Assembly: GCF_900182935.1 (NCBI RefSeq)
Contig: NZ_FXUE01000001.1
Coordinates: 992,001 to 1,056,000, forward strand
From: Fibrobacter sp. UWB10
GTDB lineage: Bacteria; Fibrobacterota; Fibrobacteria; Fibrobacterales; Fibrobacteraceae
Direction of reading: 5' to 3'
Length of the DNA stretch: 64,000 bases
This document shows, in pieces, positions 32,312-35,151 of the stretch; position 1 is the stretch's first letter, and each line of letters begins with the position of its first letter. The notes beneath the pieces were generated by a model. That model was given only the letters and a program-made list of their open reading frames with translations. It was not told the origin of the DNA and did not search any database. A program made the translations under genes and the position numbers.

Positions 32312-32345
32312 ACGACCGGCTTTTTGTCCGGTCGTATTTCTTTTA
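32312..32345 (+). terminator. Rho-independent terminator of the thioesterase gene
   Basis: The arms ACGACCGG and CCGGTCGT are followed by ATTTCTTTTA, 24 nt after the stop codon. Confidence 0.85.
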
Positions 32346-32383: not shown

Positions 32384-32444
32384 GTATCATAATTTTGACT
32401 TTTTTTATTTTGTATCATTAAAAACTTGTTTGATGATACAAAAT
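32384..32444 (+). promoter_or_regulatory. Likely operator: three GTATCAT half-sites at the TIGR02147 promoter
   Basis: A perfect 12-bp inverted repeat, ATTTTGTATCAT (32407-32418) and its complement ATGATACAAAAT (32433-32444), with a 14-nt spacer, covers the -35 region of the next gene. A third half-site GTATCAT stands at 32384-32390, 28 bp upstream of the first arm. The half-site centres in the palindrome are 21 bp apart, two helical turns. This suits a dimeric DNA-binding protein, most simply the TIGR02147 product itself. Confidence 0.65.
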
Positions 32445-32456
32445 TATCTATATTCA
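32426..32456 (+). promoter_or_regulatory. Promoter of the TIGR02147 regulator/lipoprotein operon
   Basis: TTGTTT (32426-32431), a 17-nt spacer and TATATTCA (32449-32456). The -35 lies inside the spacer of the palindrome at 32407-32444 and the second arm fills most of the -35/-10 gap. Confidence 0.6.
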
Positions 32457-32492: not shown

Positions 32493-33317
32493 ATGAAACC
32501 AATAACTGAATATCGTGATTATCGCTGCTGCATGCAGGACTTTTACGATGAACGCAAGAGGACGGGTTCGTTCACTTGGCGAGAGTTTGCCCGCTTGGCG
32601 GGCTTCACATCGCCAACGTACTTGAAGCTTGTGTGCGAAGGGAAAAGCAGCCTCAGCGAACTGGGGATCGAAAGAGTCGCCACGGCCATGAATCTGGGGG
32701 GCTTCGAATACAATTATTTTCGCTATCTGGTGCGGTACAACCAAGCCAAGGATGACGAAACAAAAAAGAACGCCTTCGCAAGCATGAAGGATATCGCGAA
32801 AGCGAACAAGATTCGAGTGGTCGATGCCGACGCCTTCACGTATTTTGAATCTTGGAAAAATCCAGTCCTGCGTGAACTGGCGACCATGATGCCAGGCGCC
32901 ACCCCCGAAGCAGTCGCCGAGATGTGCTGGCAGCCGGTTACAGCAGAAGAAGTTCGCAAGTCACTAGACTTTATGGTGAGCGTCGGAATATTACAGCGCA
33001 AGTCGAAAAACGTCTATGTACAGACAGACAAAGCATTGGTCGGCAATTCCGAAGTGATGCCCCTAGTAGTGCGCTCCATGCTCCGCGAAATGGCCGGCTT
33101 TGGACAGAAGGCTATCGACGAGTTCGACACCAATGAACGCGATGTTTCCGGCGTGACCATGGGAATCGACCGAGAAACCTATGAACAAATTGTGCGGGAA
33201 CTAGAATCCTGCCGCAGAAAAATTGTGGCTATCGCCAACACGAGTAAGGAACCGTGTCAAGTTTACCGCTTAAACTTGCAAATGTTCCCATTGTCAAAGA
33301 ATACACAAAAAAAATAG
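32493..33317 (+). CDS. TIGR02147 family protein (DUF4423), probable transcriptional regulator
   Basis: The 274-aa protein belongs to the TIGR02147 group, a paralogous set best known from Fibrobacter. The first about 70 residues look like a helix-turn-helix (WREFARLAGFTSPTYLKLVCEGKSSLSELGIERVATAM). The middle and end match DUF4423 (FTYFESWKNPVLRELATMMPG, ADEEVRKSLDFMVSVGILQ-like segment, MLREMAGFGQKAIDEFDTNERDVSGVTMGI). The start at 32493 follows TTAGGAGAATCT; earlier in-frame ATGs lie within or next to the -10 region and were rejected. It is 10 nt from the downstream lipoprotein gene, so regulator and target are likely one operon. A palindromic operator overlaps its promoter, which suggests autoregulation. 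The signal sensed is unknown. Confidence 0.85.
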   Translation: MKPITEYRDYRCCMQDFYDERKRTGSFTWREFARLAGFTSPTYLKLVCEGKSSLSELGIERVATAMNLGGFEYNYFRYLVRYNQAKDDETKKNAFASMKDIAKANKIRVVDADAFTYFESWKNPVLRELATMMPGATPEAVAEMCWQPVTAEEVRKSLDFMVSVGILQRKSKNVYVQTDKALVGNSEVMPLVVRSMLREMAGFGQKAIDEFDTNERDVSGVTMGIDRETYEQIVRELESCRRKIVAIANTSKEPCQVYRLNLQMFPLSKNTQKK

Positions 33318-33327
33318 CGAGGAGTAT

Positions 33328-35151
33328 ATGAATAATTACATAAAGACAAACGTTTTATGCTGTGGGTTGTTGGGTGCCCTCGCATTGACGGCCTGTTCAG
33401 ATTCCAGTACCGCCCAAAACTTCGGTACCACCGAAGAGAGGAACGCATTCTGGGATGAATCATCCAATCTTGTAGCATGGAAAGTCATGAAGGGTTCCGA
33501 CATTCAGTTGGAAAACACCAAGAAAGCACTACTCGGTCGCGTTTCGCTGGAAAAATCCGGCGCAAACGGCCTTGCCCGCGCAGGCATTGCCTACGACGTT
33601 TCCAACTCGGATGGTTCTCCTGCAGATCTTTCTGTGGGTAACGACGGCCTTTGCATTGCATACCAGTCTGATTTTGACGTAGAAGTCCGCCTCGATACGG
33701 AAGACTACGCCAGCTCTTCTGTGGACAAGGACGTGCCCTATGTCAGCTTGAGCATGAAGGATGGTGGCAACGAAAGCCATTGCGCTAGCTGGAAAGACTT
33801 TAGGACGAAGGATTCGGACGACAAGGACGGTTCTAAATTCGCCACGAAGGTGCGTTCCGTGCAGTTGGTCTTTGTGGGTGCATCGGGTTCGTCGGGTGAA
33901 TTCAGCATTCAGCGACTGACTCCGTATGTTCGCTCGGACTTGTGGTTTGGCAAATCAGATGGCGCTCATGTAGAGACTGGTTTTGCTAAAGGCGATGAAG
34001 GAACCTCGGGCCAATTGACTTTCTTTGGAGATTCTTCCGAAGCCTATTTCGAATGGGGTTACCCCCACGATGATACGGAACTGGACGAAAAAATCGATAA
34101 CAATGAAGGCATTGATGGCAACGTTGTCTTCGAGGGTTCCAGTCCCAATCCGGATGTCGGTTTTGAATTCCTTGTCGCAGGCAAAACCACTAAAAACGAC
34201 AAGGACTTTATTTACACGGCAAACGTGTCTAACCTGTGGAAAGGCATGTGTCTGGAATACGATTCGCAGATGGATATCGTCATGGAACTCGTTCCCGGAG
34301 ATTCCTCGGCAGGTACCCTTGAAAACGATGTCAAGACAATGACCTTTGCGAAGAACTACGACATGGAAAAGAACTGTGTGGTATTCGCAGACGTTCTGGA
34401 TGGTTCCGACGATATCCTGAAGCATTTGGCAAAGATCCGCGTGAAATTCGCAAAAGAAAACAAGGCTGGAACGGCTGTCGAAATCAGGCGAATCAGCGCC
34501 TTGGTACCGGAAAATCTTTCTGTCAAGGAATCTGGCGAATTAAAGGTAGTGACGCCGACGCAGTCTTCTAACTACAAGTCGGGAACAAGCTTCTTGTGGG
34601 ACGGCTCCGTTGACGGCGACCATGTGGACCTCGGCATTTCCGGTGCAACGGCTGGCGGAGTTTGGACCAATTCTCCCGAAGAAACGGATAGATATACCTT
34701 CGGGTTCCCCAAAAATCTTAAAACTGACGATAACGGATACGTCATTGCGTCCTTGGTAAGCAAGTATCACAAGTTTACTGGATACGTGAAATCTGACGAA
34801 GATGACAACAATATTGCAACGATTAGCCTCAACACCGTGAGCTCGAACTTGGAACCAGCCGACATTAGCGCCTGGAATGGTTTCTGCATCCACTACGAGG
34901 CGGATAGCGAAATCAGAATCACGATTGTCACGGACTCTGCGGCACACAAATACTGGTACGCCGAAGTGCCGTACTCCGACGATATGGTTTGGGGCAAGGT
35001 TTCTTGGGACGCCTTCCAGAATATCGACGAAGAATCCGATGAAAAGATCGAAGATGTCATTGGAGTAGTTTCTCAGGTTCAGCTCCGATTCCCCTACGAT
35101 GGCGGATTTACCGTAGACAAGTTCGGTTCTTACGACCAGTGCGGTAAGTAA
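33328..35151 (+). CDS. Large lipoprotein with three repeated beta domains
   Basis: The 607-aa protein has a lipoprotein signal (lipobox ALTAC, Cys23). The mature part appears to hold three copies of a domain of roughly 150-190 residues. Each has a short stretch of the form G.C..Y.S...(I/V).(I/V) (GLCIAYQSDFDVEVRL, GMCLEYDSQMDIVMEL, GFCIHYEADSEIRITI), a later part starting with (F/V)xxW or a comparable Lys/Asp-rich strand, and an end such as VQLVFVG, IRVKFAK or VQLRFPY. Before each copy there is a segment like LWFGKSDGAHVETG or FLWDGSVDGDHVDLG. The pattern resembles a jelly-roll (galactose-binding-like) fold, which would suit binding of carbohydrate or wall polymers, but I cannot name a family. 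GAGGAG precedes the ATG; it is co-transcribed with the TIGR02147 gene 10 nt upstream. Confidence 0.78.
   Translation: MNNYIKTNVLCCGLLGALALTACSDSSTAQNFGTTEERNAFWDESSNLVAWKVMKGSDIQLENTKKALLGRVSLEKSGANGLARAGIAYDVSNSDGSPADLSVGNDGLCIAYQSDFDVEVRLDTEDYASSSVDKDVPYVSLSMKDGGNESHCASWKDFRTKDSDDKDGSKFATKVRSVQLVFVGASGSSGEFSIQRLTPYVRSDLWFGKSDGAHVETGFAKGDEGTSGQLTFFGDSSEAYFEWGYPHDDTELDEKIDNNEGIDGNVVFEGSSPNPDVGFEFLVAGKTTKNDKDFIYTANVSNLWKGMCLEYDSQMDIVMELVPGDSSAGTLENDVKTMTFAKNYDMEKNCVVFADVLDGSDDILKHLAKIRVKFAKENKAGTAVEIRRISALVPENLSVKESGELKVVTPTQSSNYKSGTSFLWDGSVDGDHVDLGISGATAGGVWTNSPEETDRYTFGFPKNLKTDDNGYVIASLVSKYHKFTGYVKSDEDDNNIATISLNTVSSNLEPADISAWNGFCIHYEADSEIRITIVTDSAAHKYWYAEVPYSDDMVWGKVSWDAFQNIDEESDEKIEDVIGVVSQVQLRFPYDGGFTVDKFGSYDQCGK

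Follow-up and report, generated by a model that had tools for sequence, protein, structure and literature searches.

A probable autoregulatory palindrome before a TIGR02147/DUF4423 regulator gene of Fibrobacter, and a putative residue-to-base code among its paralogues

The window analysed here, a stretch of 64,000 nucleotides, comes from the genome of a Fibrobacter close to F. succinogenes and carries a gene for a regulator of the TIGR02147/DUF4423 family; a 99% identical protein is found in the isolate RUG13981. The gene presumably forms one operon with the lipoprotein gene that follows it, and it is preceded by an inverted repeat that is superimposed on a promoter. The features of the locus are listed below, with positions counted within the window.

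32312-32345, + strand: hairpin and T-rich stretch ending the upstream thioesterase gene (from sequence and repeat reading)
32384-32390, + strand: third GTATCAT; present, not conserved, probably no part of the operator
32407-32444, no strand: whole inverted repeat with 16-nt arms, 94% complementary
32409-32418, + strand: left half-site TTTGTATCAT, 38 bp ahead of the -10 and termed the "proximal word" of the family; exact in 26/26 orthologues
32426-32431, + strand: -35 hexamer TTGTTT; TTG invariant in orthologues, often TTGACT
32433-32442, - strand: right half-site, an inverted copy between -35 and -10 (ATGATACAAA on the + strand); exact in 23/26 orthologues, one mismatch in 3/26
32449-32454, + strand: -10 hexamer TATATT, N17 from the -35
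32493-33317, + strand: TIGR02147/DUF4423 regulator, 274 aa (TIGR02147, 301 bits)
32613-32636, + strand: codons of residues 41-48 (PTYLKLVC), predicted to form the recognition helix; operator bases 4-6 covary with residues 41, 42 and 46
33328-35151, + strand: gene of a 607-aa lipoprotein, 10 bp after the regulator (sequence reading)

The protein scores 301.4 bits against TIGR02147, a model named Fsuc_second (cut-off 50), and 86.6 bits against PF14394, the DUF4423 model (cut-off 30), and neither family library gives a function for these entries. In the open-access literature, to which the search was confined, TIGR02147 appeared in no paper and DUF4423 in a single table, that of a proteome study on Bdellovibrio; within this scope no earlier description of an operator or a code for TIGR02147/DUF4423 was found. 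The window genome holds 28 TIGR02147 genes, and of the 168 Fibrobacterota genomes searched 156 have the family, frequently with dozens of copies, while all 14 control genomes lack it. In every case with enough downstream flank (237/237) the regulator is followed by a lipoprotein-like ORF, a call made by pattern for 210 of them, while 27 missed the pattern, of which the 25 inspected by eye do show a lipobox-like cysteine. This next ORF usually overlaps the regulator gene or starts within a few bases of it, and encodes a signal peptide and a lipobox-like cysteine. The otherwise divergent lipoproteins of the family share a short motif a little way behind the lipidation cysteine, approximately (V)AGGT.E(E/D)(T/A)(N/G), which reads FGTTEERNA in the lipoprotein of the window.

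The outer 12 bp of the inverted repeat are perfect, the arms 32407-32418 and 32433-32444 being fully complementary, and an inward extension leads to the longer, nearly complementary arms 32407-32422 and 32429-32444. The core GTATCAT (32412-32418) is matched by ATGATAC (32433-32439) with 21 bp between the centres, the -35 sits between both half-sites, and the right half-site lies within the 17-bp spacer. The inverted repeat, the half-site spacing and the TTGTTT-N17-TATATT promoter all read as the earlier note had described them, with a repeat that is slightly longer. The pattern GTATCAT-N12..18-ATGATAC occurs once in the window, in none of 100 shuffles and at a single place in the 3.48-Mb genome. 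The 10-mer TTTGTATCAT has six copies in that genome, five of them at TIGR02147 promoters, namely two at the window locus and one each before the TIGR02147 genes L016, L014 and L011, about 43-55 bp ahead of the gene starts. The sixth copy is located inside a metallophosphoesterase-like ORF, and non-coding copies occur at TIGR02147 promoters only. A wider regulon was considered and rejected, the exact 10-mer being found elsewhere only within coding sequence (exact matches were scanned).

A search of 80 Fibrobacter genomes yielded 26 orthologues, that of the window included, with 70-100% protein identity. Conservation of the palindrome upstream of orthologues was the test set beforehand, and the outcome was positive in all 26: TTTGTATCAT-N14-ATGATACAAA is kept without mismatch in 23 and with one mismatch in three, and all mismatches fall in the right half-site. 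The gap between the half-sites measures 14 bp in 25 orthologues and N15 in one, neither the left half-site nor the TTG of the -35 changes in any of them, and the -10 is located 38-39 bp from the left word. The 14-bp middle, except for this TTG, varies, the start codon follows the word at anything between 51 and 511 bp, and the flanks are unalignable. All 26 orthologues show what characterises an autoregulatory operator, a site in the regulator's own promoter that is conserved together with the regulator. L048, once taken for an orthologue without the palindrome, carries it about 510 bp before its start codon with one mismatch. The region around the repeat is A+T-rich, and a chance palindrome, an RNA hairpin or a terminator might be suspected there. 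We give almost no credence to these readings: the half-sites have persisted over 26 genomes while the middle, apart from the TTG, and the flanks have changed, the repeat lies upstream of the transcription start expected for its own promoter, and the upstream thioesterase gene has its own terminator-like hairpin, which places the putative operator in an intergenic space of its own.

The third GTATCAT at 32384-32390 was correctly noticed in the earlier note, but the supporting role in binding proposed for it there is not supported. It is exact in two of the 26 orthologues, both of the same species, and has one mismatch in two more, and in the remaining 22 it is at about chance level, on which ground it was dismissed as an operator component. 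A separate element, a G+C-rich hairpin between the operator-promoter region and the regulator gene, was seen in L044, in L046 (5' leader) and in L048 (about 1045-1125); its loop holds repeated copies of GGTTAGGA, and in L044 it consists of GACGGAAGTGACC...GGTCGCTTCCGTC followed by a T-run. This putative leader hairpin of L044, L046 and L048 looks like a leader terminator or attenuator.

When the upstream regions of the 28 genes of the same genome were read, a word of TGT plus five bases was recognised at the promoter and again about 70 bp upstream. For the statistics of these repeats 332 regulators were grouped into 92 clusters at 80% identity, and counts were weighted by cluster and compared with dinucleotide shuffles. 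Exact 8-mer repeats 69-74 bp apart were observed 31.1 times against 2.4 expected (13-fold; 92 clusters), and the next peaks were seen at spacings of 19-23 bp (6.8-fold) and 90-93 bp (4-fold). A word chosen by its promoter position alone has a second copy, differing by no more than one mismatch, at 69-74 bp in 43% of 81 clusters, compared with 1.3% in the upstream regions of other paralogues and 0-2.5% at other offsets. The distal word is half of an inverted pair in 30 of 63 cases, usually 11 bp start to start, and in 14 of the 63 a direct copy is found 19-23 bp before it. The automatic rule assigned no word to 13 of the 28 paralogues of this genome. The palindrome is the exception, since most paralogues whose operator can be recognised have two sites 69-74 bp apart. 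The window locus and its orthologues have no such pair; the starts of their two words are separated by 22 bp, and for lack of that pair the locus is not classed as looped. Outside the family of Fibrobacter, 30 loci of more remote genomes in the phylum were read, and the 69-74 bp arrangement was seen in none. Short palindromes, for example TACACTAAAAGTGTACATTTTTAGTGTA and TGTTTTCCCCAGGAAAACA, are seen upstream of distant TIGR02147 genes (L396, L402, L403, L405, L412 and L419), and at L386, from another genus (G150), two direct copies of TTGTATCGC and not an inverted pair flank the -35.

The DNA between proximal and distal words is 80% A+T, and in 59 such spacers the A/T tracts follow a period of 10-10.5 bp (z 14-18 against run-shuffles), a periodicity not seen further up, beyond the distal site. 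Where no pair was recognised, the A/T period of the regulators is weaker, and words may have been missed there. Phased A tracts are also found upstream of strong promoters generally and have other known roles, so that the periodicity is support for a loop and not proof of one.

Measured from the -10, the words stand about 16, 26 or 33-40 (mostly 37-38) bp upstream, and in each register they overlap or abut the core promoter. Start codons and promoters were assigned by rule across the family, and in 36 of 81 clusters the ATG follows the -10 hexamer at 5-9 nt (mode 7), as in L014, the L018 group, L045 and L047; with an ATG so near the -10, many regulator mRNAs are probably leaderless. The regulator gene of the window has a 38-nt stretch from the -10 to the ATG, which contains AGGAG.

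The covariation between word and protein was examined for 82 representative regulators with 33 distinct words over every protein column (about 270); these words had been selected for a repeat or palindrome, so that the set is enriched for recognisable repeats. Residues 41 and 42 rank first among the roughly 270 columns for base 4 and residue 46 for base 5, residue 42 is first by excess information for base 6, and residues 52, 41, 49 and 46 are among the leading columns for base 7. Since the paralogues are related, mutual information is only partly corrected for descent, and some columns outside the recognition helix score as well. In close pairs (at least 60% identity outside the helix) residue 41 is at the top for base 4 and residue 46 third for base 5, while bases 6 and 7 have residues 43 and 55 as their leading columns. 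In a larger set, leucine at position 46 goes with T at base 5 in 60/60 cases, valine with G in 13/14 and aspartate, threonine or methionine with C in 8/9, and tyrosine is mixed. Proline at position 41 goes with A at base 4, and serine with T, or with G if asparagine occupies position 42. Such a change is found even inside one orthologue group, in which SPSYM accompanies TGTAGCAT and SSSYM accompanies TGTTGCAT.

A code table keyed on residues 41, 42 and 46, and trained within the genus only, was applied to 17 regulators of other genera. It gave the exact word for 9/17 and the word with at most one mismatch for 13/17, against 0 and 9.6%, respectively, in 490 upstream regions of regulators with other keys. 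Together with the covariation of word and recognition helix across the family, the comparison indicates that TIGR02147 proteins read these words. A DNA code can thus be read for the family, to which the earlier note had thought the site a possible entry point. A different DNA-binding protein, not the TIGR02147 product, might recognise the words at these promoters, and the occurrence of one word at four paralogues of the genome would suit it. We consider this very improbable, however, because the word varies among paralogues in step with the recognition helix of the protein encoded next to it, and because the helix-word code predicts words in other genera.

That each paralogue has a word of its own is ruled out, TGTATCAT being common to four regulators of the window genome, the window protein, L011, L014 and L016. 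Cross-regulation is thus possible among them; either it takes place, or the geometry (palindrome or distant pair) and flanking bases separate these regulators. Other TIGR02147 subtypes of the same genome (the L002, L003, L009, L013, L020 and L022-L024 types) have different recognition helices, and repeats of TGTGTAAA or TGTTCCCA are seen at some of them, so that these subtypes, too, may follow a code. For the window protein the code predicts a shift towards TGTAGCAT on the exchange L46V, towards TGTATAAT on T42N and towards TGTTTCAT on P41S together with T42G.

The AlphaFold model of the full-length window protein is poor and unreliable (pLDDT 50.7), while an AlphaFold2 model of the N-terminal part reaches moderate confidence (pLDDT 73.4), with helices at 10-24, 29-36, 41-48, 56-65 and 71-84. 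Residues 41, 42 and 46 fall into the second helix (41-48) of the predicted helix-turn-helix, a placement of moderate confidence at best. In a possible likeness to Cro/C1 proteins (Xre, HTH_3), the predicted helices 29-36 and 41-48 follow each other in the order of a helix-turn-helix, and the recognition residues are predicted at the start of its second helix. Fold comparison gave weak, non-significant matches to C-proteins and SinR; no match of the model was significant in Foldseek or VIA-align, a result that excludes no fold, and a sequence search of the PDB gave no significant match either. Among the Pfam helix-turn-helix models, all below their cut-offs, the window protein reached only HTH_AraC with 15.9 bits (cut-off 26.6), and the paralogue L002 reached HTH_3 with 14.3 bits (cut-off 23). 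As these cut-offs are not reached, we do not class the window protein as Xre (PF01381 and relatives).

We regard it as very likely that the TIGR02147 protein encoded at 32493 has the palindrome as its operator, and that this site serves autoregulation, probably by repression. The binding claimed in the earlier note gains weight from the conservation in 26/26 orthologues, from the near-exclusive occurrence at TIGR02147 promoters and from the covariation of word and helix, and is deduced from sequence. A dimer of the protein would set one recognition helix (41-48) on each TGTATCAT word and would thereby cover the -35 and most of the spacer, so that RNA polymerase would be shut out and the regulator's own operon, with the lipoprotein, would be repressed, a sign of control suggested by the geometry. 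The C-terminal DUF4423 part would sense a signal. The same module would be used family-wide, each paralogue reading a TGT-plus-five word that residues 41, 42 and 46 would chiefly determine. Where an operator can be recognised, most paralogues combine the promoter word with further words 69-74 bp upstream, and the phased A/T tracts that join them suggest a short repression loop; the orthologue group of the window has two inverted words flanking the -35 instead.

Repression is favoured because the words overlap or abut the polymerase site, the promoters are mostly strong-looking and the words of the window enclose the -35. It is rather unlikely that the regulator binds the palindrome but mainly activates the operon, or does both, repressing without a signal and activating with one. 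In most paralogues the proximal word does lie immediately ahead of the -35, at 37-38 bp from the -10, the position of a class II activator, but the -35 and -10 hexamers in this register are mostly near consensus (TTGACT, TATATT), so that such promoters should not need the help of an activator. The 26-bp register, which shows no good -35, would fit activation; against activation stand the L010 group, whose word is placed within the spacer at 16 bp from the -10, and the group of the window, which has its second word between -35 and -10 and the -35 enclosed by the two words. With repression as the preferred reading, activation is possible for those paralogues whose sole promoter-proximal word is upstream of the -35.

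On balance we judge it likely that the TIGR02147/DUF4423 proteins form a hitherto unrecognised family of DNA-binding autoregulators, whose approximately 30 regulator-lipoprotein modules per Fibrobacter genome would be kept largely apart by a code (residues 41, 42 and 46 against bases 4-6 of the TGTNNNNN word) and by operator geometry, that is, pairs 69-74 bp apart on probably curved DNA or a compact palindrome. The family would provide a naturally occurring collection of regulator-operator pairs, largely orthogonal to each other, and an example of numerous paralogues acting on short, probably curved, two-site operators.

The logic followed here is that of earlier work on the MerR family, in which aligned factor residues were compared with aligned operator bases (PMC5045206), and on the LacI family, for which factor-specific operators were searched family-wide (PMC2329647). 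Those families were known, however, whereas TIGR02147 had no assigned DNA target; its proteins now gain a probable molecular role, an assignment of DNA words and predictions that link one residue to one base. A close mechanistic parallel is RcoLS20 of plasmid pLS20, an Xre-type autoregulator with two operators 75 bp apart, one of which overlaps promoters, with an 8-bp motif repeated in each operator and with a spacer of periodic A/T tracts for which a static bend has been demonstrated, looping being backed by experiment (PMC4207663). The probably looped paralogues resemble it in the spacing of the two sites (69-74 against 75 bp) and in the phased A/T spacer. RcoLS20 differs in being a single regulator of a plasmid conjugation switch with divergent promoters, as opposed to about 30 paralogues, and in having several motifs per operator; the likeness to TIGR02147 drawn here is one of probable mechanism. 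An operator pair at about 75 bp is found in many paralogues and not at the window locus, where the operator is, unlike that of RcoLS20, a short palindrome without the 69-74 bp arrangement. The window probably presents a compact palindromic variant of a design that is usually two-site and probably looped.
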